Under the pieces are notes generated by a model. It saw only the letters and a program-made list of their open reading frames with translations, was not told the origin of the DNA and searched no databases. A stretch of DNA of 33,608 nucleotides, taken from assembly GCF_016744155.1 (NCBI RefSeq), contig NZ_JADGEW010000033.1, positions 1-33,608 on the forward strand, written 5' to 3'. Below are positions 1 to 30,739 of this stretch, piece by piece. The position numbers were made by a program, and so were the translations under genes. Source of the stretch: Amphritea sp. (GTDB lineage Bacteria > Pseudomonadota > Gammaproteobacteria > Pseudomonadales > Balneatricaceae). Each line of letters opens with the position of its first letter. The first letter of the stretch is position 1.

Positions 1-550
1 CTTCAGCATGATCAACCCGGGTTTCTGGAGACCAGGTTGCAGGTGTGTGACAGGCTTCACAGTTGTTAGTGGTGTTGATGTGGTTATTGTTCTTCCCTGT
101 GGCAATAGTGCCGTTATGACAGCTAGAGCAGCTGCCGGTGACACCACTGTGATCAAACACTGCGCCGGTGAAGCTGTTGGTATTGTGACAGTCGTCACAG
201 GTATTGCCGCTCTGGATATGATTAGCTGATTTACCTAATGCAATGGTGCCATTATGACAGCTGTTACAGGTGCCATTTACTTCAGCATGATCAACCCGGG
301 TTTCTGGAGACCAGGTTGCAGGTGTGTGACAGGCTTCACAGTTGTTAGTGGTGTTGATGTGGTTATTGTTCTTCCCTGCGGCAATAGTGCCGTTATGACA
401 GCTAGAGCAGCTGCCGGTGACACCGCTGTGATCAAACACTGCGCCGGTGAAACTGTTGGTATTGTGACAGTCGTCACAGGTATTGCCGCTCTGGATATGA
501 TTAGCTGATTTACCTAATGCAATGGTGCCATTATGACAGCTTGAGCAGGT
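1..550 (-). repeat. 279-nt in-frame tandem repeat (four-heme unit)
   Basis: The stretch 272-550 repeats the preceding 271 bases with only a few substitutions (for example in the ccctgt/ccctgc and accact/accgct segments) until the last heme codons. Each unit encodes 93 residues and four CxxCH motifs. The first copy is cut by the window edge, so more copies may follow. The near identity implies recent duplication or ongoing homogenisation. Confidence 0.9.
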
Positions 551-3388
551 CCCTAATACTTCATTATGATCGACCCGGGTCTCCGGAGACCAGGTGGAGG
601 GAGTATGACAGGCTTCACAGTTATTGCTGGTGTTGATATGGCTGGTGTTTTTGCCGGTGGCAGTACTGCCGTTATGGCAGCTTCCACAGCTACCCAGTAC
701 CTCAGCATGGTCAACCTGGGTTGCAGGTGACCAGTTAGTATTCGCATGACAGCTTTCACAGCTGTTGGTGGTATTGATATGGCCGCTGTTCTTTCCAGTG
801 GCTGTGCTGCCGTTGTGACAGGTAGCGCAGTTAGCGGTGGTACCGGCGTGGTCAAAGGTCGCTTCGGCCCAGCCCAGTTGAGGGTTGTGACAATCCTCAC
901 AGGTATTAGCGCTCGGAATATGATTGGCTGACTTGCCTGTAGCTATCGAACCGTTATGACAGCTTGAGCAGGTCCCTAATACTTCATTATGATCGACCCG
1001 GGTCTCCGGAGACCAAGTTGCGGAAGTGTGACAAGCTTCACAGTTATTGCTGGTATTGATATGGCTGGTGTTTTTGCCGGTGGCAGTACTGCCGTTATGG
1101 CAGCTTCCGCAGCTACCCAGTACCTCAGCATGGTCAACCTGGGTTGCAGGCGACCAGTTAGTGTTCGCATGACAGCTTTCACAGCTGTTGGTGGTATTGA
1201 TATGGCCGCTGTTCTTTCCAGTGGCTGTGCTGCCGTTGTGACAGGTAGCACAATTAGCGGTAGTGCCTGCGTGGTCAAAGGTCGCTTCGGCCCAGCCCAG
1301 TTGTGGGTTGTGGCAATCCTCACAGGTATTAGCGCTCGGAATATGATTGGCTGATTTGCCTGTAGCTATCGAACCGTTATGACAGCTTGAGCAGGTCCCT
1401 AATACTTCATTATGATCGACCCGGGTCTCAGGAGACCAGGTGGAGGGAGTATGACAGGCTTCACAGTTATTGCTGGTATTGATATGGCTGGTGTTTTTGC
1501 CGGTGGCAGTACTCCCGTTATGACAGCTTCCACAGCTACCCAGTACCTCAGCATGGTCAACCTGGGTTTCAGGTGTCCAGTTAGTATTCGCATGACAGCT
1601 TTCACAGCTGTTGGTGGTATTGATATGGCCGCTGTTCTTTCCAGTGGCTGTGCTACCGTTGTGACAGGTAGCACAGTTTGCTGTGGTGCCTGCGTGGTCA
1701 AAGATCGCTTCAGCCCAGCCAAGCTGAGGGTTATGGCAATCCTCACAGGTATTAGCACTCGGAATATGATTAGCTGATTTACCGGTGGCTATCGAACCGT
1801 TATGGCAGCTTTCACAGGTTCCCAGCACCTCATTATGATCGACCCGGGTCTCAGGAGACCAGGTGGAGGGAGTATGACAGGCTTCACAGTTATTGCTGGT
1901 ATTGATATGGCTGGTGTTTTTGCCGGTGGCAGTACTGCCGTTATGGCAGCTTTCACATGTGCCAATAACCTCTGCATGGTCAACCTGGGTTGCAGGAGTC
2001 CAGTTGCTGTTTACGTGACAGCTTTCACAACTGTTGGTGGTGTTGATATGTGCGCTGTTTTTGCCAGTGGCAATGGTGCCGTTGTGACAGCTGGAACAGT
2101 TGGTTGCATCGGCTGGGTGAACAAAGGTTGCATCGGCCCAGCCGCGATCTGGATTGTGGCAGTCCACGCAGGAATTACTGCTGGGAATATGGTTGGCTGA
2201 CTTTCCGGTAGCCGTGGTGCCGTTGTGACAGCTTTCGCAGCTGCCTATTACTTGATCATGGTCGACCTGAGCAACGGGCGACCATGTTGTATTGGTGTGG
2301 CAAGCTTCACAGACGGGAGTGGTAGTGATGTGTCCTGAGTTTTTGCCAGTGGCTGTGGTGCCGTTGTGGCAGGTTGTACAGTTTTCAGCAATACCTGCAT
2401 GGTCAAAAGTTGCATCGCTCCAACTACCGGAAGTCGTGTGACAGTCTTCACAACTGTTATTACTGGGAATATGGTTGGCAGATTTTCCGGTTGTAAATGA
2501 GCCGTTATGACAAGTTGCACAACTCCCAGTTGTTTCTGAAGGAGGGTGATCAAAAGTAGTAATTTTCCAGGTACTTATAGAATGACAGTTGGAGCAGGTG
2601 GTGCTGCTAGGTATGTGGTTGCCGGATTTGCCTTCGGCACTAAAACTGCCGTTATGGCAGCTGCTACAGTTACTAGCGCTGTCTGGGTGGCTCCACAGGC
2701 TAAGATCACTAAAGTTGGTTGGACGGTGACAATCCTCACAGACATTATTGGTGGGTATATGATTGCCACCTTTACCTGTAGCCTCAACGCCATTGTGGCA
2801 GCTGGAACAGTTGTTTTCGATACCGGTATGGTCAAACGAAGAGGTTTGCCAGCCGCTTGTAGAGTGGCAGTCTTCACAGTTATCACTAGAGGGTGGGTGA
2901 TCACTCGGTTTGCCGAAAGCGACTTGATTATTGTGGCAGGAAGTACAACTGCCAGTTACTTCATCATGGTCGACTTTCGGTACATCATTCCAACTGCTCG
3001 GGCTGTGGCAGCTGTCACAACTATTACTACTATTGATATGGTCGTTGGCCTTGGTGGACGCCGGAATAATGCTGGAGGAGGAGTGGCAGGCGGTACAAGT
3101 GCTGGGAGTGCCTTTAAATACGCCTTTAATGTGACAGCTGGAGCAATCAAGGTTGGCGTGCTGGCCATCAAGCATAAAGCCGGTACTTAGGTGGTCGAAT
3201 ACCGCTTTGGGGTCATTATTGGTTGCAGTCTGATCTTGGGTATCCAGTTGTTCCAGATTATCTGGGTCGGACATCGCCTGAACAGATAATGGCAGCATCA
3301 GGCTGAGTACCAGTAGCATCAGCAAAGGTATAGCTTGCCCCAAGATACCGGCGGCGAATGAAACTGATGGCGTTCTTGTTAATGACAT
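1..3388 (-). CDS. Giant secreted multiheme cytochrome c, at least 45 hemes (partial, C-terminus beyond left edge)
   Basis: The frame opens with ATG at 3388, preceded by AGGTGA about 5 nt upstream, and stays open to position 1, giving at least 1129 codons. Residues 1-38 are a signal peptide (basic start, Leu-rich core, cleavage near VQA). I count 45 CxxCH motifs, so it is an exported protein with covalent c-type hemes. Motifs alternate between a CHNG type followed by ATGK and HI, and a CEDCH/CEACH/CESCH type followed by a Trp and a DH that can supply the distal heme ligand. Spacing is 23-24 residues per heme. From about residue 360 onward the gene becomes tandem repeats of 141 residues (six hemes) and then 93 residues (four hemes). 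It starts 23 nt after the 21-heme gene, so the two are probably cotranscribed. The role as a periplasmic or extracellular electron carrier is inferred. The heme count is a minimum and the far end is unknown. Confidence 0.93.
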   Translation of the reverse strand, partial: MSLTRTPSVSFAAGILGQAIPLLMLLVLSLMLPLSVQAMSDPDNLEQLDTQDQTATNNDPKAVFDHLSTGFMLDGQHANLDCSSCHIKGVFKGTPSTCTACHSSSSIIPASTKANDHINSSNSCDSCHSPSSWNDVPKVDHDEVTGSCTSCHNNQVAFGKPSDHPPSSDNCEDCHSTSGWQTSSFDHTGIENNCSSCHNGVEATGKGGNHIPTNNVCEDCHRPTNFSDLSLWSHPDSASNCSSCHNGSFSAEGKSGNHIPSSTTCSNCHSISTWKITTFDHPPSETTGSCATCHNGSFTTGKSANHIPSNNSCEDCHTTSGSWSDATFDHAGIAENCTTCHNGTTATGKNSGHITTTPVCEACHTNTTWSPVAQVDHDQVIGSCESCHNGTTATGKSANHIPSSNSCVDCHNPDRGWADATFVHPADATNCSSCHNGTIATGKNSAHINTTNSCESCHVNSNWTPATQVDHAEVIGTCESCHNGSTATGKNTSHINTSNNCEACHTPSTWSPETRVDHNEVLGTCESCHNGSIATGKSANHIPSANTCEDCHNPQLGWAEAIFDHAGTTANCATCHNGSTATGKNSGHINTTNSCESCHANTNWTPETQVDHAEVLGSCGSCHNGSTATGKNTSHINTSNNCEACHTPSTWSPETRVDHNEVLGTCSSCHNGSIATGKSANHIPSANTCEDCHNPQLGWAEATFDHAGTTANCATCHNGSTATGKNSGHINTTNSCESCHANTNWSPATQVDHAEVLGSCGSCHNGSTATGKNTSHINTSNNCEACHTSATWSPETRVDHNEVLGTCSSCHNGSIATGKSANHIPSANTCEDCHNPQLGWAEATFDHAGTTANCATCHNGSTATGKNSGHINTTNSCESCHANTNWSPATQVDHAEVLGSCGSCHNGSTATGKNTSHINTSNNCEACHTPSTWSPETRVDHNEVLGTCSSCHNGTIALGKSANHIQSGNTCDDCHNTNSFTGAVFDHSGVTGSCSSCHNGTIAAGKNNNHINTTNNCEACHTPATWSPETRVDHAEVNGTCNSCHNGTIALGKSANHIQSGNTCDDCHNTNSFTGAVFDHSGVTGSCSSCHNGTIATGKNNNHINTTNNCEACHTPATWSPETRVDHAE
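551..2242 (-). repeat. 423-nt in-frame tandem repeat (six-heme unit), four copies
   Basis: Units lie at 551-973, 974-1396, 1397-1819 and 1820-2242. The CEACH codons fall at 605, 1028, 1451, 1874 and again at 2297, exactly 423 nt apart. The first three units are nearly identical and the fourth is more diverged. Each encodes 141 residues with six CxxCH motifs. The 279-nt units further left look like the same unit lacking two hemes. Repeats this similar are a hazard for short-read assembly. Confidence 0.92.
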
Positions 3389-3411
3389 ACTGATCACCTA
3401 TATCCCCTGGA

Positions 3412-4998
3412 CTACTGACTCAGGTTGCTTGTGTCGTCAAACGATTCGGTCGTGTGGCATCGTTCACAAAAACGTCCGAAACCGCCAAAATGAATATCGT
3501 CGCTGCGATGGCAGCTGAAACAGTCTGAAGCCTGATCTATATCGTCTTGATCTTTTACAGGCTTCAGGTGGCAAGCTTCACAGGGTTGTTCCTGATGCTT
3601 GCCGGTAAGTTCGAAATCGGTCTGGGTGTCGTGGTCAAACTGCCAGATGCCCCAGTCATTAGGGGTGTGACACTGTTCGCAGCGTCCACCAAGTGTTTCT
3701 TTATGTACATCGTCATCTCTGTGACAGCTGGTGCATGCCAGAGCAGTATCTTTAAAGGTTTGTTCCAGATGGCACTCTTCACAACTGGTAACTGCATGCT
3801 GACCAATTAACGGAAAACGGGTCAGGTCATGATCAAAACTAATCACGCCAGAAAAAGACTCTTCGTCATGGCATCGATTGCAGCTATCGCCCTGTTGGCC
3901 TTTATGTACATCATCACCTTTATGACAGCTGATGCAGTTGGTCGGTAATTCATCCTCAAGACTGCCTTTATGGCAGCTATGGCACTCTAGTGGTTCATGG
4001 CTACCCTTAAGTTTGAAATCGGTATCCCTATCGTGGTTGAAACTGCTTTTTTGCCATCGGTTCTCTGTATGACACTCTTTACACTCTTCGCCGTTCTTTC
4101 CCTGATGGGTATCATCACTGCTGTGACAGTCAATACAGCTTTCACCAGGTGATTTATCAAAAGGAGGATCAATGTGGCAGCTATTACAACTGGTCTCTTT
4201 GTGTGATCCCTTCAGATCGAATTCAGTATCCTTGTCATGGTCAAATTTTGATTCATCCCAATCTTTCTCTGAGTGGCACTTTTCACACTCATTGCCAAAG
4301 TGACCGCCATGAGCATCGTTCAGGCGATGGCAGGAAGCACACTCTGTAGGTATGTCTTCATATTGCTCATCGGCATGACAACTACTGCAGTTAACCTCCG
4401 CGTGTTTATCCAGAAGTGGGAAGTCTGTGTCGTCGTGATCAAATTCGGTATCTTGCCAGCCTGTTTCTTTATGACAGTCATCACATTGTTCGCCTAACTC
4501 ACCTTCATGCTTATCATCGTCTTTGTGGCAATCGATACATTGGTTCGGTGCTTCGCGGAAGTTTTGCGAAGCTTCATGGCAATTAGCGCAAGCTGCTGTT
4601 CGATGTTTACCTTCAAGTGGGTAGTCGGTTAGGTCATGGTTAAAGGTGGAATGCGTTAACTGCACAATATCGGCATCTCTTCCCATGTGATCGGAATGAC
4701 ATGTCTTACACTCAATATTCTTGCTGTTTTCCATGAGCCCATGAAAACCGGTGCCCTCTTCAATGTCTTTGGCTATGTTCTTATGGTCATGGCAAGCCAG
4801 GCATCTGTTTCTCTGCTTGCTCTGGTCAAAAGATTCATGGCAGTTATCACACTCGAGTTCGAACTGTTCATGGCCATTGATTACTTTGCCGGGCATAAAT
4901 ATAGTTTCGAAAATATTTGCTTCTCCGGGCGCACTGAAGCCTAGCAGTACCAATAGGACAAGAGACTTCAGGGTTAAAAGACGATCAGAGAGCTTCAC
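3412..4998 (-). CDS. Secreted 21-heme cytochrome c
   Basis: The protein has 528 residues and starts at GTG 4998 behind a strong GGAGG. Residues 1-28 are a signal peptide ending near GEA. There are 21 CxxCH motifs in seven groups of three. The first group (about residues 50-107) is distinct, with a CLACH, GFHG and CKTCHSDH arrangement. The other six are one module of about 67 residues: an FDHD...F.L.GKH segment, CxxCH, CxxCH followed by DDxHxG, then CxxCH and a Trp or Phe. The repeated His residues outside the motifs could be the sixth heme ligands. This module is common in cytochrome c7/c3-like proteins of metal- and sulfur-respiring bacteria. With no second membrane segment, it should be a soluble periplasmic carrier between the cytochrome b-like protein upstream and the giant cytochrome downstream. 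Its substrate is unknown. Confidence 0.93.
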   Translation of the reverse strand: MKLSDRLLTLKSLVLLVLLGFSAPGEANIFETIFMPGKVINGHEQFELECDNCHESFDQSKQRNRCLACHDHKNIAKDIEEGTGFHGLMENSKNIECKTCHSDHMGRDADIVQLTHSTFNHDLTDYPLEGKHRTAACANCHEASQNFREAPNQCIDCHKDDDKHEGELGEQCDDCHKETGWQDTEFDHDDTDFPLLDKHAEVNCSSCHADEQYEDIPTECASCHRLNDAHGGHFGNECEKCHSEKDWDESKFDHDKDTEFDLKGSHKETSCNSCHIDPPFDKSPGESCIDCHSSDDTHQGKNGEECKECHTENRWQKSSFNHDRDTDFKLKGSHEPLECHSCHKGSLEDELPTNCISCHKGDDVHKGQQGDSCNRCHDEESFSGVISFDHDLTRFPLIGQHAVTSCEECHLEQTFKDTALACTSCHRDDDVHKETLGGRCEQCHTPNDWGIWQFDHDTQTDFELTGKHQEQPCEACHLKPVKDQDDIDQASDCFSCHRSDDIHFGGFGRFCERCHTTESFDDTSNLSQ

Positions 4999-5414: not shown

Positions 5415-6317
5415 TTAATACATATGAACAGCTGTAACATGAATGAGACCGGTGATCAGTAGCATGCTAAAGAATACTACGTGGATCTTATGCCAGTTAT
5501 GAAACAGCTTTTCATAAAAGGTATATACCGCCATCTTTCGAATGGCGCTTAGTAGGATTCCTATGAGTTTACAGCTCTCTTTATAGTGTTGTTTTTCTTG
5601 TTGTTTATCCCAGCCAGAGAGACGGGCCTGAGTGGCCATGATGGGGCGCAAACGCTGGCACAGAGTGAAGTAGGTAGCCCAGGTGCTTACGCCGATAAAT
5701 ACTTTGCGGGGGATGAAGCTAAACAGGCCGTTAGTAGGCTTCATTACATAATCTTCAAAAGACTTAATTTTGTGCTCTATGGCAGGTGCTAGTCCGCGAT
5801 GGTGTCCCAGTCGTTTTCGGGCTTCCTGGCTTATATCTACCAGTTCTTCAATCTTTGCATGTGTGCCGAATAGTCCGTAGTGAACCTGGGCATAAATGTA
5901 GCGTCCGGCAATACCACTGACAACAACGAAGAGCATGGAGTATAGGGCAACATTACTATTGGTCGCTCCCAGTGAAAAGTTACAATGAAAGGCGACCATA
6001 ACCGGTGCGATAACGCCCATAAACATGTGCAGGTTAAACCATATTTTTATAGCGCCGGTGTTGCGCATGAACTTAAATTTTTTCCTCAACGGGTAGATAA
6101 AAATCAGAATGAAAATCACACCCGCAATTAGTCCCAACCAGTAGCCGACGCCCCACTCAGCCGTTATTAAGAACTCCTCTCTCTGTTGCCAGCCCCATAT
6201 TAGTAATAGTGTTAGCGCTACCGAAAAAAAGGGTGCTGCAAACTGTTCCAGAGGGGATAGGTGGAGTTTGTTAATATCTGCTTTCTGTTGTTTTTCAGCC
6301 ACGGTGGTATCGCTCAT
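5415..6317 (-). CDS. Membrane cytochrome b-like protein, probable electron-transfer anchor
   Basis: The protein has 300 residues with about five membrane segments: 26-43, 56-77, 93-112, 122-144 and 278-298. A large loop of about 130 residues separates the fourth and fifth. His97 and His111 lie in segment three; His273, His276, His279, His293 and His298 cluster around the last segment. These are good candidates for bis-His b-heme ligands. The arrangement resembles ferric-reductase-like or cytochrome b561-like proteins, but I cannot assign a precise family. It sits 41 nt downstream of the CcmI-like gene and upstream of the two multiheme cytochromes. The likely role is passing electrons across or out of the inner membrane to periplasmic hemes. 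The partner and direction are inference. Confidence 0.75.
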   Translation of the reverse strand: MSDTTVAEKQQKADINKLHLSPLEQFAAPFFSVALTLLLIWGWQQREEFLITAEWGVGYWLGLIAGVIFILIFIYPLRKKFKFMRNTGAIKIWFNLHMFMGVIAPVMVAFHCNFSLGATNSNVALYSMLFVVVSGIAGRYIYAQVHYGLFGTHAKIEELVDISQEARKRLGHHRGLAPAIEHKIKSFEDYVMKPTNGLFSFIPRKVFIGVSTWATYFTLCQRLRPIMATQARLSGWDKQQEKQHYKESCKLIGILLSAIRKMAVYTFYEKLFHNWHKIHVVFFSMLLITGLIHVTAVHMY

Positions 6318-6358: not shown

Positions 6359-7228
6359 CTACTGGCGGGTCTGATTAATTTCAATCGTAACACCGCTATT
6401 GCTTGCTGGATCCACCGCTTGACTGAACCCTTCCAAGTCACCTTTGGACGCTGTAGCGCTGTCACTGAAAGAAATTCGAGCCCCAATAACAACTAAGTTA
6501 GAAGAGGAAAGTTTTCGGTCTGGAATAACGGCATTTGAATCATTGAGAGTGAAGCTTAATGGTAGTGTTACAGGTGTTTTGCGTATAGCGGCTAATGGCA
6601 TTGGTGGGCCTTTATCTGCCCGGGCGAAGATAAAAAGTGTGGCGTTTTTGTTAGTCAGCTGTTCAGCCAGTTCAGGTGCTATTTTAACTTCTCCGCTGAC
6701 TGATACCTGCTTTGAATCAGGGCCATCATTCAGTGCCTGGTCAATCATTACGGCGGTCAGGTTTCGAGATGTTTTTGGCGGGGGGAAGGCCCGTGTTGGC
6801 TGGGATTCCTGTTTAGCGGATATGCCACTGCGTACTTCCTCAAGGCGGGCAGGTGTCAGGCCCAAAGCGGTTGCTTTAGCGTAAGCCTGGTCAGCAGCAG
6901 CCTGATCTTTCATATATTGATAGGTTCGTCCCAATAGTACCCAGCCTTCCATATCCTCAGGCTCATTTTTAAGTCTATCTCTTAACTTCTGTGCCATCTG
7001 GTCTAGAGGTCCGGCCTGAATCTGGTTGGTGTTATCAGCGGCCTTTGCTGCCATTAAGGTGCTGGTTGTGCTGGATGGTTGAACCATGCTGGTTAAATAT
7101 TCACCAGATTGAGTAGGGCTGCTGTCTTGCAATACAAAGACAGCAGTCACAAGACCTGCAGCTAAAGCTACCGCGGTAAACAAGGTGTTTCTCGTCATTC
7201 TGCCTGAGACTCCATATATGGGTTTCAT
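6359..7228 (-). CDS. CcmI/NrfG-like TPR protein, cytochrome c assembly accessory
   Basis: The protein has 289 residues. One membrane segment (about 16-34) is followed by a linker, a TPR region (about 72-130, including PEDMEGWVLLGRTYQYM), and a C-terminal beta domain (about 165-285). The pattern ATLFIFARADKGPPMPLAA with a later VVIGARIS is typical of the C-terminal half of CcmI/CycH. That family presents apocytochrome to the heme ligation machinery. No other ccm genes are nearby, so this is an orphan copy beside genes encoding at least 66 CxxCH motifs, suggesting a dedicated chaperone. ATG 7228 has only a weak ribosome site; ATG 7198 with an AGG about 6 nt upstream is an alternative start that keeps the membrane segment. 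Confidence 0.8.
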   Translation of the reverse strand: MKPIYGVSGRMTRNTLFTAVALAAGLVTAVFVLQDSSPTQSGEYLTSMVQPSSTTSTLMAAKAADNTNQIQAGPLDQMAQKLRDRLKNEPEDMEGWVLLGRTYQYMKDQAAADQAYAKATALGLTPARLEEVRSGISAKQESQPTRAFPPPKTSRNLTAVMIDQALNDGPDSKQVSVSGEVKIAPELAEQLTNKNATLFIFARADKGPPMPLAAIRKTPVTLPLSFTLNDSNAVIPDRKLSSSNLVVIGARISFSDSATASKGDLEGFSQAVDPASNSGVTIEINQTRQ

Positions 7229-7488: not shown

Positions 7489-8814
7489 ATGAATATACAG
7501 GCTGAATTTTATCAATATCTGATTATAGCTACGCCGTTGCTGGCTATCTGGATACTGTATAACTGGTATAAAACAACTCAAACTCGGGCGAACCTTGCGA
7601 TTAAATCCGAAGCGGTTGTCGCCGGCCTGACTGAGCCTGCCTCTCTCCATCCAATTATCAATAGTAATATCTGTCTGGGCTGTGGCTCCTGTGTGAATGC
7701 CTGTCCAGAAGCTAAACATCAGGTGTTGGGTTTAATCGATAATAAAGCAGAATTGCTCAATCCCGCAGACTGTATTGGTCATGGCGCCTGTAAAACAGCT
7801 TGTCCCGCTGATGCGATAGAGCTGGTGTTTGGTACTGAGCGACGCGGGTTAGATATTCCCAACGTAAAACCTGATTTCCAGACCAATATTCCCGGTATCT
7901 ATATTGCCGGTGAACTTGGTGGCATGGGACTAATTAAAAATGCCACTGAGCAGGGGCGCAAAGCGATGGATGAAATTGCTAAAGTGTCTGGAATGGGCTC
8001 AGGTGGTGATCTTCTTGATGTGCTTGTAGTTGGTGCCGGACCTGCAGGAATAACAGCGACACTCGGCGCCATGGAGAAAAAACTTAAGGTTAAGACCATC
8101 GAACAGGAATCTTTGGGTGGCACTGTTGCACAGTTCCCCCGGGGTAAACTAGTTATGACTGCTCCGGCTAAACTACCGATAGTGGGTGAATTCCAGTTTA
8201 AAGAAACGACCAAAGAAAAACTGATTGAATTTTGGACAGAGGTTGAGCGTAAAACCGGCTTAAAGGTCAATTATAAAGAACGGGTCGATCATATTGATCA
8301 TCTGCCGGACGGTGGCTTTGAAGTTACCACTAATAAGTCTGTATATCGTACCCGAGCTGTTCTACTGGCGATTGGCCGGAGGGGAACACCGCGCAAATTA
8401 GGTGTGCCCGGTGAAGATCAGAATAAAGTTGTGTACAGGTTAGTCGATCCTGCTCAATATCAGGGTCAGCATGTTTTGATTGTCGGTGGTGGAGACAGTG
8501 CACTGGAAGCTGCAACCAGTATCGCTGAAGAGCCAGGTACTACAGTCACTCTTTCATATCGAAGTGGAGCATTTGGTAGGGCTAAAGAAAAAAACCGTCG
8601 TAAAGTTGATGCGGCTGTTGAAAGTGGACGTCTGAACTTAATGCTTAGCTCAACTATTAGCGAAGTGCTGAAATCTGAAGTCATACTCAATCATAACGAT
8701 GAGCAACATCGGATTCCCAATGACGGTGTAATTGTATGTGCTGGCGGTATCTTACCGACTGGTTTTTTAAAGAAGATAGGTATTGAGGTAGAAACGAAAT
8801 ATGGTACTGCCTGA
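7489..8814 (+). CDS. Membrane-anchored FAD/NAD(P) oxidoreductase with ferredoxin-like domain
   Basis: The protein has 441 residues, with ATG 7489 preceded by TAGG. It has an N-terminal membrane anchor (about 9-25) and a ferredoxin-like domain. One cluster motif is complete (Cys62, 65, 68, 72); the other reads Cys95, His98, Cys101, Cys105, with His in place of the second Cys. Residues 133-156 (TNIPGIYIAGELGGMG) resemble the C-terminal FAD motif of thioredoxin-reductase-like enzymes. The first FAD motif (VVGAGPAG, 180-187) and the NAD(P) motif (VGGGDSA, 332-338) follow, and the chain stops soon after VIVCAGG. The order of FAD elements thus looks permuted. There is no CxxC redox disulfide, so it is not a thioredoxin reductase. 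It probably moves electrons between NAD(P)H and a partner, perhaps the divergent cytochrome chain. Its last 14 nt overlap the next gene. Confidence 0.82.
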   Translation: MNIQAEFYQYLIIATPLLAIWILYNWYKTTQTRANLAIKSEAVVAGLTEPASLHPIINSNICLGCGSCVNACPEAKHQVLGLIDNKAELLNPADCIGHGACKTACPADAIELVFGTERRGLDIPNVKPDFQTNIPGIYIAGELGGMGLIKNATEQGRKAMDEIAKVSGMGSGGDLLDVLVVGAGPAGITATLGAMEKKLKVKTIEQESLGGTVAQFPRGKLVMTAPAKLPIVGEFQFKETTKEKLIEFWTEVERKTGLKVNYKERVDHIDHLPDGGFEVTTNKSVYRTRAVLLAIGRRGTPRKLGVPGEDQNKVVYRLVDPAQYQGQHVLIVGGGDSALEAATSIAEEPGTTVTLSYRSGAFGRAKEKNRRKVDAAVESGRLNLMLSSTISEVLKSEVILNHNDEQHRIPNDGVIVCAGGILPTGFLKKIGIEVETKYGTA

Positions 8815-10840
8815 TTGGGCTTTTAATGCGCGGTGGAAAACCATCGCACTGTACATCCTCGCAATCTGTGTGTTGAGTTCCGTTTTCAATTTATCACCGG
8901 CCCATGGTGCGAATCATGAATTGGGCGAGGTAAAAGCTGCAATCAGGGTTAAGGACTATACCGGGGCTCAAGTTCTGTTGAAGCCTATGGCCGATGCTGG
9001 GAACGCTGAAGCACAGTACCTTCTCTCAACCATGTATCGTAACGGGCAAGGGGTTAAGAAAAGTCACGAGAATGCTGTTTTCTGGCTGGAAAAGGCAGCG
9101 GCTCAGAATCATCTGAAAGCGACTTATAATCTTGCGATGATGTATCAAAAGGCCTGGGGAGTTGAGCAAGATCTTGATCGTGCAAATGAGTTGATGCAGG
9201 CCGCTGCTGCGGCAGGCCACCCGTTAGCGCAAAGAAAACTGAATAAGGATTCTTCAGAGACTCGTCAGAAAAAACAGCTGAAAGAGTATCGCTCAGTTGA
9301 TAAAGAGGAAACACTTCGCTGGCTGGCACAGAAGGGTAGTAACAACGAATTAAAGCAACTGTTAGAGCAAAAGCCCGATATAAATAGTCGTGATGATAAT
9401 ATGCGGACAGCGCTGCATGAAGCGGCAGAAGCTGGACATAAAGAAACGGTCAATTTGTTACTGCAGGCGGGTGCACAGATTGGTGTGAAGGATAAGTTTG
9501 CTATTACTCCTGTTATGGCTGCCGCTCAGCAAGGGCATACTGGAGTGGTAAAGCTCCTTCTGAAAGCCGGCTCAAACAAAGGTGCCCAAGATGCTAATGG
9601 CAATACTTTGATGCACTTTGCTGCCGGTAGTGGACACTTGGAAACGGTCAAGTTGTTGGGTTCAGTCGGTGTTGGTTTTAATGGCATAAATCGTAGCGAA
9701 TATAGTGTGCTTGATATGGCAGTTAACCGCGGGCATAAAAAAGTGGTTAGCTGGTTGAGTGCGAATGGAGCGAAGCGCAACAATATGGCGCCTCCAGAAC
9801 GGGATGCTTCTCTGGTTGCTCTGGAATCGCTGAACTCTGTTGATCAGGTCGTTACTGGTGAAAGTAATCCCTATCAGGGCTGGTCTGTACTGATGCTTTC
9901 AAGTTGGCGGGGGCAGGATAAAGTTGTATCCAAATTATTGCGCGGGAAACCCGATCTTAATCAGGTCGATCAGGAAGGTCATACCGCTCTCAGTCGTGCA
10001 GTATGGCAGGGGCATTTTGAGATTGCTAAGCTGTTGGTTGGCGCAGGTGCTGATGTTAATCATCAGTTGTCAGATGGCCATTCTGTACTGATGCTTGCAG
10101 CAGAAAAGGGTTTCGAAAAAATCACTGCTCTACTGATTAAGGCGAATGCAGATCAGCGGCCACTCCTGGAAAATGGTGACGGGGCGTTGATGCTTGCGGT
10201 GAAAGGAGGCCATGCTGAAATCGTCCGGCAACTGCTGGATAGTGGTTCGGGTGCGTTGTTGAAGAAAGAGCAAGCTAACGTACTGCTAGAGGCCGCAGCA
10301 GCGGATCTGCCGCAATTGATTGATCTGCTGGTAAGTTATGGTGTGTCTCCTGATACACAGGATAAACAGTCACGTTCTGCTCTCTGGTACGCTGCGGATG
10401 ATGGCGCAATTAAGGCGATGAAAGCGTTGCAGGATAAAGGCGCTAATCTGAATCTCGCTGATGTGAATGGTATCTCCCCTCTGATTCGTACGATCACACG
10501 TAAACGGATTGAAGCACTTAAATGGTTGATTGCTGCGGGTGCTGATATTAATCAGCCGGATAGTAAAGGTAATACTCCATTGATGGTTGCTGCAGGGGCA
10601 GGTAATCGGAACAGCATGATTTTACTGGCTGCTGAAAATGCCGCGGTTGATAGTCGCAATAAGTTTACTCAAACGGCATTAATGATGGCTGTCAACGCTG
10701 GTCATATTGAAGTGGTTCAATGGCTGCTTGAAAATGGAGCTAAGCCACGCAGAAAAAACCAGTTAGGGCAGGATAGCTTCCGTCTTGCTGAAGCAACGGG
10801 AAATAAGCCGATGCTGACTCTGTTAGACCAATATCGTTAA
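8801..10840 (+). CDS. Exported Sel1-repeat and ankyrin-repeat protein
   Basis: The protein has 679 residues; ATG 8801 lies inside the end of the oxidoreductase gene (14-nt overlap in another frame), suggesting translational coupling. Residues 1-37 form a signal peptide ending near AHG-A, so the repeats are likely periplasmic. Two to three Sel1 repeats (about 40-150, with EAQYLLSTMYRNGQGV) are followed by a charged linker and about 14 ankyrin repeats (about 170-675, with TALHEAAEAGHKETVNLLL and similar). Both repeat types bind proteins; no catalytic domain is seen. Its coupling to the oxidoreductase suggests a scaffold for the electron-transfer complex, but this is inference. It ends 10 nt before the convergent gspB. 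Confidence 0.88.
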   Translation: MVLPDWAFNARWKTIALYILAICVLSSVFNLSPAHGANHELGEVKAAIRVKDYTGAQVLLKPMADAGNAEAQYLLSTMYRNGQGVKKSHENAVFWLEKAAAQNHLKATYNLAMMYQKAWGVEQDLDRANELMQAAAAAGHPLAQRKLNKDSSETRQKKQLKEYRSVDKEETLRWLAQKGSNNELKQLLEQKPDINSRDDNMRTALHEAAEAGHKETVNLLLQAGAQIGVKDKFAITPVMAAAQQGHTGVVKLLLKAGSNKGAQDANGNTLMHFAAGSGHLETVKLLGSVGVGFNGINRSEYSVLDMAVNRGHKKVVSWLSANGAKRNNMAPPERDASLVALESLNSVDQVVTGESNPYQGWSVLMLSSWRGQDKVVSKLLRGKPDLNQVDQEGHTALSRAVWQGHFEIAKLLVGAGADVNHQLSDGHSVLMLAAEKGFEKITALLIKANADQRPLLENGDGALMLAVKGGHAEIVRQLLDSGSGALLKKEQANVLLEAAAADLPQLIDLLVSYGVSPDTQDKQSRSALWYAADDGAIKAMKALQDKGANLNLADVNGISPLIRTITRKRIEALKWLIAAGADINQPDSKGNTPLMVAAGAGNRNSMILLAAENAAVDSRNKFTQTALMMAVNAGHIEVVQWLLENGAKPRRKNQLGQDSFRLAEATGNKPMLTLLDQYR

Positions 10841-10850
10841 ACCTGCTTAA

Positions 10851-11753
10851 TTAGCGCATCAGTCTAAACTTTTCGCCACGAAAACTAAGTATTAGAGAAT
10901 CGGGCCTGATCTCTTCGAGAGTCAGGTCGCTACTCAGCTGTTGTCCCTGTCGGGTCATCGTCCCATTTATTCTCGCCATACGCTGTTCGGGAATATCGGT
11001 GTAGATATGCACTGAAACATTCAGTGCTGGAATTTCACGTTGAAGCGCTGATTTCAGTTCCCTCAATAGAGGGATGTTTGTTTGGTTTTCAACTGTTGAG
11101 GATGGACTCTCATATTGCTGCGTATTTTTTAGTATTGGTAGAGACGTCGGTGAAATACCTCTGCTGGTTAGCGCTTCGTCCGGTTCCTCTCTGAGAGGCG
11201 CTAGTTGCTCAATGAGTGCCTGATTTAGAAGGCTTCGATTGAGTTTTTCAATATTAGAGGCTGGCAGCGGTTGTACTGTTTTTGATTGATTCTTAACAGG
11301 CGTTTTCACAATGTCAGGCTTTATTTCGGTTCTGCCCGGCATTGGTGCGAATGGATTTCGGTGGTAGTGTGGAACCTGATCGATAGGTTTAGTGGTCGTT
11401 TGAGTTTCGATCGGATTCGGCGAGAGTAGAGCTTTGTTTAGGTGATTGCTCGGCTTTATAGTGTCAGCTAGCTCTGCTGTTTGCTCTGTTTCCGCTATTG
11501 CTTTGAGAGAGTTGTCAGCAGTATCGGGTATTTGATCCGTAATTCTTATCGTAGACGGATCTGCATCGGGTGTTGTTACAGGCCAGAGTAATAACAGAAT
11601 ATTGACTATCAGTAGTGCAGGTACTATCCATAACCATTTTTTTCGAGTCGGCTTAGGTTCTTCTATGGCTTGAATCGTCTGACTGATCCCGTAAACAGGC
11701 TCACTATCGCGTTCTTTCTCTGATTTTTTAAGGGCGTCCAGTATGTATGACAT
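10851..11753 (-). CDS. gspB: Type II secretion accessory protein GspB
   Basis: The protein has 300 residues. The start MSYILDALKKSEKER is the hallmark of GspB/ExeB/PulB-type proteins. A single membrane segment lies at about 41-60, followed by a long Pro/Thr-rich periplasmic linker and a C-terminal domain (about 225-300) with the ARINGT and LILSFRGEKFRL pattern typical of the family. GspB works with GspA to place the secretin GspD in the outer membrane through the peptidoglycan. Its ATG directly follows the gspA stop codon with no gap, so the pair is one translational unit. No other gsp genes are in the window. Confidence 0.9.
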   Translation of the reverse strand: MSYILDALKKSEKERDSEPVYGISQTIQAIEEPKPTRKKWLWIVPALLIVNILLLLWPVTTPDADPSTIRITDQIPDTADNSLKAIAETEQTAELADTIKPSNHLNKALLSPNPIETQTTTKPIDQVPHYHRNPFAPMPGRTEIKPDIVKTPVKNQSKTVQPLPASNIEKLNRSLLNQALIEQLAPLREEPDEALTSRGISPTSLPILKNTQQYESPSSTVENQTNIPLLRELKSALQREIPALNVSVHIYTDIPEQRMARINGTMTRQGQQLSSDLTLEEIRPDSLILSFRGEKFRLMR

Positions 11754-13748
11754 TCACGGCTCCCGGGAACTTAGCAGCATGGGAGCATCAGTATCTATTA
11801 GAGTATTCAGTCGGATCAAGGTTTCTGGGCCGACGACACCATCCTGCAATAGGTTCTGACTGCGTTGAAATGCTTTTACGTAGAGCACCAGTTGATCGTC
11901 AAAATAGGTGTTCATCTCGCTTTGGAATAGTGGAGATAGCCTTGCGAGTTGTTGTTTTAGCCAGAGAACATGAGGGCCTGAACTACCGGGCCTAGTCAGT
12001 TTGTAATACCCTTCCGGTGGGTTCCAGAGTAGGGTGTAGTTGAGTAAAACACTGTCGCTGAGTTGATCAAGAGGAGTCTGCCATTGTTGCGTTCCATCTG
12101 AGAAGCTGGCGATCCCCTGGTTGTGGTTGACCTGTACCAATACCCTATTAGAAATCAAACCATCGGTGTTTAGCATACGGATTAAAGCTGGGCGGTTGTT
12201 ACGATTTAATTGGGCCCAATTTCCCTGTTTATGAAGGCAGCGAAGGCCCTGGGAGAGAGCAAACAGACAGGGGTCTTGGTTCAGAGGCATATCCTGTTGC
12301 CATATTTTAAATAGGGTGTAATAAGCCTGAATTTCGGAAGTGTTATTGCCCATTGAGTCATGAACAGGTTGCTTAGTTTGAGTGGCAACCAGAGTATCCT
12401 GCCCTAAGGCTGCAATTGTCTCGGTGGAGGTGGTTATTACTGTTTTATTTTCCAGAATTGAATCAGAGGGCTCTGTCTTCGGGATAGGGGTGGTTTCTAT
12501 TGTTTGGGTAGTAGATGCTAAGCTCAAATCGGAGGGGGGAGCTATTTTTATCTCTGGTGCAACAATGACTTCCTTAGCAGTGGCCTGAACCAGAGATAGC
12601 TGTTCAGTTGTTGTTTGGTTCGGTTGATTAATATTTACAGCGGCTTCTGATCTGGTTATAGGAGCTCTTAAGGCATTTGTCTCTTCGGAAGTTTCTGCGG
12701 TAACAATTTCGGATTTAGTTCTAGCCTGCTTGGTATCAGATTCTGGTTGTAACTGTTGTATCTGAGGCTGAACGGATGCGTCAGACATTACCTGGTCTGC
12801 TGACTCTGTAAGCCAGTGGTTAGCAATAGGGTAGAGTCGGTACATAATCAAGGCTATAAAAATAACACCCAATACCGCGGTCACCTGCCTGAAATAAGAT
12901 TTTGTTGGTTGAAGAGGTTTCCGGCTTGTACCAAAGACTTCCGAAGCCGCTTGATAAAGGGTATCCGAGTTTATAGAGGGTTCATTACTAGCATAGGCGC
13001 CCAGTAGGGCTCGGTCACAGATGATATTAATAAGCCGTGGAACCCCACCACTCAGGTGGTGTATCTGAGCAAGTAATTTATTAGGAATAGGGTCTGGCCT
13101 ATTGGCGACCTGTTTATGCCCGGCAACGGCCATGCGATGACTAATATAGTGTTGTGTTTCAGCTAGTTTTAACGGTGAAAGGTGGAATCGGGCGGTGATT
13201 CTCTGCGCCAGCTGTTTTAACTCTGGTCGCTCAATCAATTCCCGTAGTTCTGGCTGGCCAAACATGACGATCTGTAACAGTTTTTTCTCGTTGGTTTCCA
13301 GATTTGTCAGTAGTCGCATCTGCTCCAGGACGTTAGGATTCAAGTTCTGTGCTTCATCAATAATCAGAACCGTATTTCTTCCCGCAGCATGGCTTTTTAA
13401 CAGATGGTGATAAATTGAATCAGAAAGTAATTTAATGCTGAGGTGGTGTTTATCATAGTCGATATGTAATTCATCGCAGATACTGGCAAGTAACTCCTCT
13501 GAATTCAGTGTCGGATTGAGAATAAAGGCAACATCGGTTTTGTCACTGGTGTGGTTCAGCATGCAACGGCATAGGGTTGTTTTACCGGTACCAATGTCAC
13601 CGGTTAACATGACAAAGCCACCATTGCCCTGAATGCCATAGATCAGATGAGCTAAAGCATCCCGATGCTGGGGGCTCATATAGAGATAGTTCGGATCAGG
13701 TGCGATCGCGAAAGGTGATGATGTAAGTCCGAAATAGTGGTTATACAT
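11754..13748 (-). CDS. gspA: Type II secretion ATPase GspA (ExeA-like)
   Basis: The protein has 664 residues. It starts MYNHYFGLTSSPFAIAPDP, the family signature. It has an AAA domain with Walker A GDIGTGKTT (50-58) and Walker B VLIIDEAQNL (127-136), and a membrane segment at about 287-306. A Thr/Glu-rich periplasmic linker of about 150 residues follows, then a peptidoglycan-binding domain near the C-terminus (about 600-655, including QDGVVGPETLIRLN). GspA uses ATP in the cytoplasm while binding peptidoglycan in the periplasm, with GspB as partner. The ATG has AGGG about 9 nt upstream. Confidence 0.92.
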   Translation of the reverse strand: MYNHYFGLTSSPFAIAPDPNYLYMSPQHRDALAHLIYGIQGNGGFVMLTGDIGTGKTTLCRCMLNHTSDKTDVAFILNPTLNSEELLASICDELHIDYDKHHLSIKLLSDSIYHHLLKSHAAGRNTVLIIDEAQNLNPNVLEQMRLLTNLETNEKKLLQIVMFGQPELRELIERPELKQLAQRITARFHLSPLKLAETQHYISHRMAVAGHKQVANRPDPIPNKLLAQIHHLSGGVPRLINIICDRALLGAYASNEPSINSDTLYQAASEVFGTSRKPLQPTKSYFRQVTAVLGVIFIALIMYRLYPIANHWLTESADQVMSDASVQPQIQQLQPESDTKQARTKSEIVTAETSEETNALRAPITRSEAAVNINQPNQTTTEQLSLVQATAKEVIVAPEIKIAPPSDLSLASTTQTIETTPIPKTEPSDSILENKTVITTSTETIAALGQDTLVATQTKQPVHDSMGNNTSEIQAYYTLFKIWQQDMPLNQDPCLFALSQGLRCLHKQGNWAQLNRNNRPALIRMLNTDGLISNRVLVQVNHNQGIASFSDGTQQWQTPLDQLSDSVLLNYTLLWNPPEGYYKLTRPGSSGPHVLWLKQQLARLSPLFQSEMNTYFDDQLVLYVKAFQRSQNLLQDGVVGPETLIRLNTLIDTDAPMLLSSREP

Positions 13749-29959: not shown

Positions 29960-30739
29960 TTAAGTCTCGGCGTTTTCTGGGTCAGCTTCTGAATTGTTGT
30001 CTGTTTCGGCGTCCGGCGCCGATTCAATACCTAATAAAGCATCTACTGCGCTAACCACTTCTTCGTTGAGTTCTTTATTAGCGGCCTGCCCAAGAATTTC
30101 AATTGCGGTTTGTTCCAGATCTGCGCGCTCTTCTTCGCTAATTGCATCTCGTGCTGCGTTTACCGCCGCTTCATACTGGCCCAGTAAGCCTACCGCAGAG
30201 TTGGGTGACGCATTGGCCCTTGCTGTTGCTGATGCATGGGCTGCATTCAGTCGTCCGAGCTTAGCTGAAACTGCTTTATGATCATTTCCCAGTCCATTAT
30301 TACTGCTAAATCCCTTATTAGCAGATTTGTTCGACTTGCCCTGCACGCTATTACCCAGACCAAATGCGTTACCATTACCCTTACTATTTCCGCCAGCGTT
30401 ACTGCTGTTACCACCGCCGTTACCACCGCCGTTACCACCGCCGTTTCCACCACCGTTTCCACCACCGTTTCCACCGCCGTTTCCACCACCGTTTCCACCA
30501 CCGTTTCCACCGCCGTTTCCACCGCCGTTTCCACCGCCGTTTCCACCGCCGTTTCCACCGCCGTTTCCACCGCCGTTTCCACCGCCGTTTCCACCACCGT
30601 TTCCACCACCGTCGCCTTTCGCCAGAGCTATGCTCCCGAGATCCAGACCGGTCATTTGCTGAGTGATAACAGGTGAAACCGCCAAAGTGACAGCGAGAGT
30701 TGTTGCGTTAAGAAGGGGAAAAGCTGCTTTAAGGTGCAT
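29960..30739 (-). CDS. Secreted low-complexity GGGN-repeat protein
   Basis: The protein has 259 residues. A signal-like N-terminus (1-40) precedes 17 perfect Gly-Gly-Gly-Asn units (about 43-111). These are followed by a Ser/Asn/Gly linker, an Ala-rich helical domain (about 160-225, with QYEAAVNAARDAISEEERADLE), and an acidic tail. The C-terminal part resembles domains found at the ends of other Gly/Asn-rich surface proteins, but the function is not known. AAAGG lies about 8 nt before ATG 30739. It lies 66 nt downstream of the HD-GYP gene on the same strand. The repeat array probably varies in length. Confidence 0.75.
   Translation of the reverse strand: MHLKAAFPLLNATTLAVTLAVSPVITQQMTGLDLGSIALAKGDGGGNGGGNGGGNGGGNGGGNGGGNGGGNGGGNGGGNGGGNGGGNGGGNGGGNGGGNGGGNGGGNGGGNSSNAGGNSKGNGNAFGLGNSVQGKSNKSANKGFSSNNGLGNDHKAVSAKLGRLNAAHASATARANASPNSAVGLLGQYEAAVNAARDAISEEERADLEQTAIEILGQAANKELNEEVVSAVDALLGIESAPDAETDNNSEADPENAET
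30407..30610 (-). repeat. 12-nt minisatellite, 17 copies (GGGN codons)
   Basis: There are 17 consecutive units of the form gttNccaccNcc on the plus strand, 204 nt in total, differing only at two synonymous positions. They encode the GGGN array. Arrays like this change copy number by slippage in steps that keep the frame. Confidence 0.95.

Follow-up and report, generated by a model that had tools for sequence, protein, structure and literature searches.

A giant predicted PCC3 cytochrome of Amphritea is encoded in one block with type II secretion and copper-protein genes

We analyzed a 33,608-bp stretch of DNA from Amphritea sp. (assembly GCF_016744155.1, contig NZ_JADGEW010000033.1; hereafter, the window), at the left edge of which lies the gene of a giant multiheme cytochrome, flanked by genes of a porin-cytochrome conduit of the PCC3 type. 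The original prediction had singled out a reverse-strand frame with 45 CxxCH heme motifs in 1129 residues and no stop. Translation from 3388 to 1 bore this out: shuffled versions of the 1129-residue protein averaged 0.55 such motifs, none of 2000 shuffles having above 4, and the remaining five frames over the same positions contained 0-2 motifs and 18-132 stops each. Open frames are also present on the opposite strand, as had been stated, the longest stop-free stretch there being 216 codons. All cysteines of the 1129-residue part sit within CxxCH motifs, which are mostly spaced by 23 or 24 residues, and 46 histidines lie beyond the motifs, one per inter-motif interval in 43 of 44 intervals, so that the need for bis-His ligation could be met. 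The N-terminus, judged by eye, has a Sec-type signal; an alternative start is a GTG at 3397. At the DNA level, the gene consists of 423-bp and 279-bp repeats, the former matching at 88%, which, from the motif spacing, were read as six-heme and four-heme units, respectively.

The window is a complete contig (C26); its left edge is thus an assembly break, and this break sits in a 279-bp repeat of the giant gene. Another contig of the same genome, C10, starts with a 355-aa frame of the same repeats, with 14 CxxCH motifs and one CX3CH, and a stop at 1069. Both contig ends that face the break, the terminal 99 bp of the gene on C26 and the opening 99 bp of C10, recur inside the gene, where they are 7 bp apart; such repeated contig ends have the appearance of a short-read assembly break. 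With 7 bp added, which makes the most parsimonious join, the frame is kept and a protein of 1487 aa with 59 CxxCH motifs and one CX3CH is obtained (60 sites, ~25 residues per heme). The leftward extension that had been proposed for finding the stop and the C-terminus thus led to both, and the full heme count exceeds 45, as anticipated. Intact homologues occupy the same gene place in three congeners (G015, G016 and G009), one of which is a single-contig assembly; they have 1538, 1584 and 1585 aa, with 61, 63 and 63 CxxCH motifs plus one CX3CH each (62, 64 and 64 sites). In the alignment with these proteins, the join is free of gaps, which fall elsewhere (94 and 47 residues). The joined sequence thus gives 60 as the best estimate of the number of sites, and as its lower bound.

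The genes beside the giant frame point to PCC3, which was defined (He et al. 2017, PMC5566968) by a porin, extracellular and periplasmic multiheme cytochromes, and a diagnostic inner-membrane protein (IMP), which is ~300 aa long, carries an SGXXG and two WX3HX13H motifs, and is described as having five transmembrane helices. All of these components are found in the cluster. The motifs of the IMP (W93-X3-H97-X13-H111, W275-X3-H279-X13-H293 and S134-G-x-x-G138) are conserved in alignment A1, which holds 23 IMP sequences, one row being shortened at the C-terminus. All 21 heme motifs of the periplasmic cytochrome (p21) are invariant across 30 aligned homologues; its AlphaFold model was of low confidence (pLDDT 69, pTM 0.29) and was not used. 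The porin, which lies on C10, was modeled by AlphaFold2 (pLDDT 81.5) with 22-23 strands following SPOR and TPR parts; among solved structures, porins, FadL and ushers match it best, though at low TM-scores. The giant protein has the many hemes and the low residue-to-heme ratio of PCC3 extracellular cytochromes, its location being a prediction. In the described set, this ratio is 22-39 (median 26), and the periplasmic cytochromes have a median of 21 hemes (PMC5566968). The values for the genus, 60-64 and 21 sites, are close to the 63 and 21 sites given for the PCC3 of Amphritea atlantica DSM 18887 in the same paper. On this sequence evidence, the giant frame is assigned as the predicted extracellular cytochrome of a PCC3 conduit and a new member of PCC3. 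The idea of a molecular wire, put forward in the original prediction, is in line with the 60 sites, approximately one spare histidine ligand per heme, and the PCC3 neighbors.

Among solved chains, the nearest to the giant cytochrome is MtrC (E 5.8e-6). The two resemble each other in that MtrC and OmcA are surface multiheme cytochromes paired with a porin. However, that family has ten hemes and a lipoprotein anchor, whereas the giant has 60 sites in tandem repeat at ~23.5 residues per heme, and no cysteine outside the heme motifs in its 1129-aa part that could carry a lipid or belong to a lipobox. The sortase, PEP-CTERM and T9SS anchors that had been suggested were not seen by eye, the C-terminus lying 16 residues past the last heme motif. 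The porin is encoded on C10, together with secretion system genes. It should be noted that the giant passes the DmsE-family decaheme label TIGR03508 (202 versus a cut-off of 192 bits), but does so via eight stretches of the repeat, and we did not file it there.

Past the giant gene, C10 continues with a 152-aa protein, the porin, GspE, GspF-K, a run of kinase, sigma-54 regulator and hybrid kinase, and SCO1; then come a MofC-like cytochrome (546 aa, one CxxCH), an adhesin-like giant (SdrD-like, 1979 aa) and the cupredoxin proteins mcoA1, mcoA2 and mcoA3. A protein of 181 aa, a subtilase and GspL/M/C/D follow. The Gsp genes represent a type II secretion system (T2SS): GspD scores 477 bits against a cut-off of 351, GspM is past its cut-off, and so are T2SSE, T2SSK, T2SSB and T2SSM_b in Pfam, with T2SSC (GspC) slightly under; GspF-J and GspL owe their names to gene position, length and resemblance on inspection. 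The ligand motifs of multicopper oxidases are present, split over two adjacent proteins. In mcoA1, HxxHxHG and HCH...EH..MGM are invariant (H132-x2-H135-x-H137-G, H177-C-H179), and in mcoA2, HxxHxHG and HSHxE (H276-x2-H279-x-H281-G, H421-S-H423); mcoA3 matches weakly. The solved chains nearest to mcoA1 are two-domain multicopper oxidases. From these motifs we infer one putative copper oxidase split over two chains, mcoA1 and mcoA2. As a separate observation, the run of the 1979-aa SdrD-like gene and three tandem cupredoxin genes (L026, 292-11405) recurs in unrelated PCC3 carriers. The kinase-regulator-kinase run may resemble MnxS1/R/S2 of Pseudomonas putida, a likeness on which we base no claim. 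The features of the cluster are collected below.

Coordinates of the PCC3 genes and their neighbors (window positions, except where another contig is named)
Feature	Position	Strand	Basis or remark
Giant PCC3 extracellular cytochrome (predicted), N-terminal 1129 aa, 45 of 60 heme sites	1..3388	-	continues at L006 (G000:C10) 2-1069
p21, 528-aa 21-heme PCC3 cytochrome, predicted periplasmic	3412..4998	-	21 CxxCH
IMP, 300-aa inner-membrane PCC3 protein, two b-type hemes predicted	5415..6317	-	motifs in alignment A1
CcmI/CycH-like cytochrome c biogenesis protein	6359..7228	-	Pfam PF23892, 103 bits
4Fe-4S and FAD/NAD(P) oxidoreductase (FeS-FAD), membrane anchor by eye	7489..8814	+	Pfam Pyr_redox_3, Fer4_10
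Sel1 and ankyrin repeat protein	8801..10840	+	Pfam
GspB (ExeB) of T2SS	10851..11753	-	Pfam T2SSB PF16537, 74 bits; same place in G015, G016, G009
GspA (ExeA)-like ATPase with peptidoglycan-binding domain	11754..13748	-	Pfam AAA_22, PG_binding_1; named by architecture and neighbor
PCC3 porin, 742 aa	L006 1559-3787 (C10)		SPOR and TPR parts, then barrel

Elsewhere in the window, positions 29960-30739 encode a protein of 259 aa that has no Pfam match and contains a long GNGGG repeat, made of 17 copies of a 12-bp unit. The window yielded no matches when scanned for Rfam families and tRNAs.

The same gene order is found in the three congeners with intact giant genes over the fetched stretch, their GspD genes lying slightly beyond it. 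Of the 17 genus genomes examined, four (our genome, G009, G015 and G016) carry the gene of the 21-heme cytochrome, and mcoA1 is present (at least 82% identity) in the identical four; the GspD of the block (at least 83%) is present in these and in G004. The last genome (L163, G004:C294) has GspC/L/M/D and the subtilase and no 21-heme or mcoA1 match, but the contig starts at the gene after mcoA3, and gene loss is indistinguishable from missing assembly. The block GspD is the sole GspD match above 50% identity in our genome, so that this T2SS may serve all secretion there; its dedication to the wire is a possible alternative.

To place the cluster among other PCC3 loci, we scanned GTDB contigs using the IMP alignment; of the 370 relatives obtained, the best 80 were taken as PCC3 loci. 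The scan was built on one peptide pattern that does not fit the IMP of our genus, and hence these 80 loci contain no close relative. A homologue resembling the 21-heme cytochrome adjoins the IMP in all 80, and a porin was found in 46, many contigs being short. FeS-FAD homologues (74 of 80; two of the six loci without one begin less than 300 bp from the IMP) and Sel1-ankyrin homologues (65 of 80) are near-constant partners, although PCC3 is described with four components (PMC5566968); in our genus, the T2SS and cupredoxin set joins as well. The 152-aa protein between the giant and the porin (L006, 1073-1531) has no Pfam match, and a BLAST homologue occurs in 8 of the 80 loci. One locus (L064) shows part of an SdrD-like gene.

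The closed extracellular cytochromes of these loci (n=47) have a median of 30 and a maximum of 74 sites, and 60 or more sites were counted in 10 of the 67 loci that have a second cytochrome. In three loci (L113, L123 and L133, from two Bradyrhizobium and one groundwater gammaproteobacterium), the cytochrome runs off the fetched stretch with at least 98, 96 and 90 sites, respectively, and He et al. report one with 85 (PMC5566968). A record size is thereby refuted; by its predicted count, the giant cytochrome falls in the top part of the known size range. The expectation that it would be one of the larger multiheme cytochromes therefore held, whereas it is not among the very largest. We make no claim of a tie between giant size and mcoA1, since site numbers in the mcoA1 carriers among the 67 loci run from 11 to 96 or more, and those with large counts are for the most part relatives of symbionts.

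The association between copper proteins and PCC3 was examined in a class draw of 369 genomes, searched with the IMP and with mcoA1; in the mcoA1 search, as in the search of a phylum draw, the top four first-look candidates per genome were scored. With our genome included, the IMP was found in 64 genomes at E<=1e-3 and in 41 at E<1e-35, and mcoA1 (E<=1e-25) in our genome and nine others. All nine carry a strong IMP match, compared with 40 of the 368 genomes (hypergeometric 9e-10, or 8e-8 with the loose count of 63/368; kinship ignored). In a phylum draw of 398 genomes, which partly overlaps the class draw (G122 is in both), full-length mcoA1 was found in our genome and in G632, and the IMP in our genome and five others, including G632; a partial, weak mcoA1-like match without IMP was seen in G767 (E 6e-21). 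In these samples, mcoA1 comes with PCC3, and PCC3 occurs mostly without mcoA1. In all nine class carriers, mcoA1 and mcoA2 are adjacent, with mcoA3 next in eight; SCO1 and a MofC-like gene are present in three of the nine fetched stretches around the mcoA1 matches. Physical linkage recurs in two further lineages. In G173, one 36-kb stretch holds PCC3, FeS-FAD, ankyrin, regulators, SCO1, MofC-like, SdrD-like, mcoA1-A3, small protein and subtilase genes. In Rhodospirillales Ww62, PCC3, an SdrD-like gene and mcoA1 lie on one 24-kb contig, and in G249, T2SS-like genes adjoin mcoA1-A2.

Known systems offer partial parallels. In Sideroxydans lithotrophicus ES-1, for which three tandem multicopper oxidase genes are described (PMC5566968), the cluster Slit_1812-1818 rises on solid magnetite (PMC12016527). 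It comprises SCO1, a cytochrome and three proteins with cupredoxin domains, a large one of which also has adhesin and polysaccharide-lyase-like regions. The likeness to our block is one of described make-up, not of sequences, and the accessible text of that paper does not tie the cluster to PCC3. A secreted multicopper oxidase, SCO1, and a MofC-like cytochrome plus periplasmic-binding protein also recall MofABC of Leptothrix and OmpB of Geobacter as they are described in accessible texts; here, however, two neighboring proteins each carry a share of the copper motifs, and the comparison is by description, not by sequence homology. Expression of PCC3 above the mean was reported for Sideroxydans CL21, where the IMP of one copy alone is clearly up (PMC12442390). 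A 2026 paper on Leptothrix lists PCC3 and multicopper oxidase genes per genome (PMC13386937), its accessible text not stating linkage. We found no description of PCC3 combined with a cupredoxin cluster and a T2SS in the open-licence literature, as far as its accessible text goes and supplements aside. The occurrence of PCC3 in one block with T2SS, SCO1, a MofC-like cytochrome, an adhesin-like giant and three cupredoxins, in 4 of 17 genus genomes, looks new.

Taken as a whole, the block is, in our estimate, somewhat more probably than otherwise one unit for using Fe(II) or Mn(II) as an electron donor in solid or mineral form, with secreted copper proteins coupled to the 60-heme wire. The giant cytochrome would be exported, loaded with ~60 bis-His hemes, and would form an extended chain outside the cell. 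A multiheme chain measures roughly 1 nm per heme, and this one may reach tens of nm. Electrons would enter at the surface, run along the chain, cross the outer membrane at the porin, and pass through the 21-heme periplasmic cytochrome and the two-heme-b IMP to quinone or, alternatively, via the FeS-FAD oxidoreductase to NAD(P). The T2SS would export the copper proteins, and perhaps the cytochrome as well; mcoA1-A2-A3, served by SCO1 as copper chaperone, would act on the mineral while the heme wire takes the electrons in. Both the coupling of copper proteins to the wire and the direction of the electrons are inferred. We prefer uptake because our cupredoxin cluster is composed like the ES-1 cluster that is raised on magnetite, and because PCC3 is discussed alongside metal oxidizers in the accessible literature. 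A stricter version, in which the cupredoxins and PCC3 are one machine, with a secreted two-chain copper oxidase passing metal electrons to the wire instead of, or besides, O2, is tentative, and we would sooner doubt it than rely on it.

Several results weigh against a coupled unit. No T2SS, cupredoxin, SCO1 or MofC-like gene was found at E<=1e-6 in the fetched flanks of the 80 PCC3 loci, where at most 5.1 kb past the porin is visible, in 45 of them. At E<=1e-20, mcoA1 matches occur in 12 of the 80 named PCC3 genomes, including Candidatus Thiodiazotropha and Ctena symbionts, and the 68 without a match imply that PCC3 works without mcoA1. In the remaining carriers examined, the PCC3 and mcoA1 sets are on separate contigs or far apart. 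The p-values above ignore relatedness (the nine mcoA1 genomes represent eight genera), and the 1e-35 cut-off was picked after viewing the list. Proteomics in Sideroxydans speaks partly against coupling. For Slit_1448, the extracellular cytochrome of PCC3 in ES-1, a value of 0 is listed under each of eight conditions, whereas the cupredoxins rise (PMC12016527). Growth on Fe(II)-citrate lowers both ES-1 PCC3 clusters (PMC8788666). RuBisCO was not found in our genome (a control search was positive in 5 of 14), which makes autotrophy on metals unlikely; the gain would probably be extra energy for a heterotroph. Finally, multicopper oxidases can hand electrons to O2 without any wire.

Some of these points would be expected if the PCC3 conduit worked alone, for uptake or release, with the cupredoxin and T2SS genes as neighbors gathered by a shared habitat and having their own job, as a plain metal oxidase or in copper or adhesion functions. 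PCC3 is complete and widespread without cupredoxins, and the opposite regulation of the two in ES-1 (PMC12016527, PMC8788666) agrees with such independence; on the other hand, PCC3 in nine of nine other mcoA1 carriers of the class draw, linkage in three lineages and the identical distribution within the genus argue against mere neighborhood, and we regard this explanation as a minority possibility. An outward wire, with respiration onto minerals or electrodes, electrons leaving via the 60-heme chain and copper proteins acting like OmpB, appears unlikely to us. In Geobacter, the outer-membrane multicopper protein OmpB is needed for insoluble Fe(III) reduction and, to judge from how Mehta et al. 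2006 is titled, leaves the cell through an atypical T2SS; the proximity of the giant to MtrC and the lack of a RuBisCO match in our genome fit this direction too. Conversely, PCC3, whose function the literature calls untested, is known mainly from oxidizers and from aerobic or microaerobic habitats (PMC5566968), and SCO1 and cupredoxin chemistry fits oxic settings. Still further from what we expect is an assembly artefact, in which the repeats inflate the open frame or the C26-C10 join is wrong. The position of the break in a 279-bp repeat and the similarity of the 423-bp repeats speak for it, and the break leaves some room for additional four-heme units; however, three genomes carry the gene intact in this position, coding for 1538-1585 aa, and the junction aligns with these relatives without a gap, which makes an artefact very improbable.

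PCC3 is widespread, with 370 relatives of its IMP in a single GTDB contig scan. The block that joins PCC3, T2SS and copper proteins offers a testable hypothesis on the substrate, export route and partners of this conduit, and the co-occurrence points to genomes worth testing, namely carriers of both the PCC3 and mcoA1 sets. If the copper proteins and the wire are indeed one machine, the cell would be able to draw on solid Fe(II) or Mn(II) as a source of usable electrons, and Amphritea would hold the whole machine, together with its secretion system, in one block.

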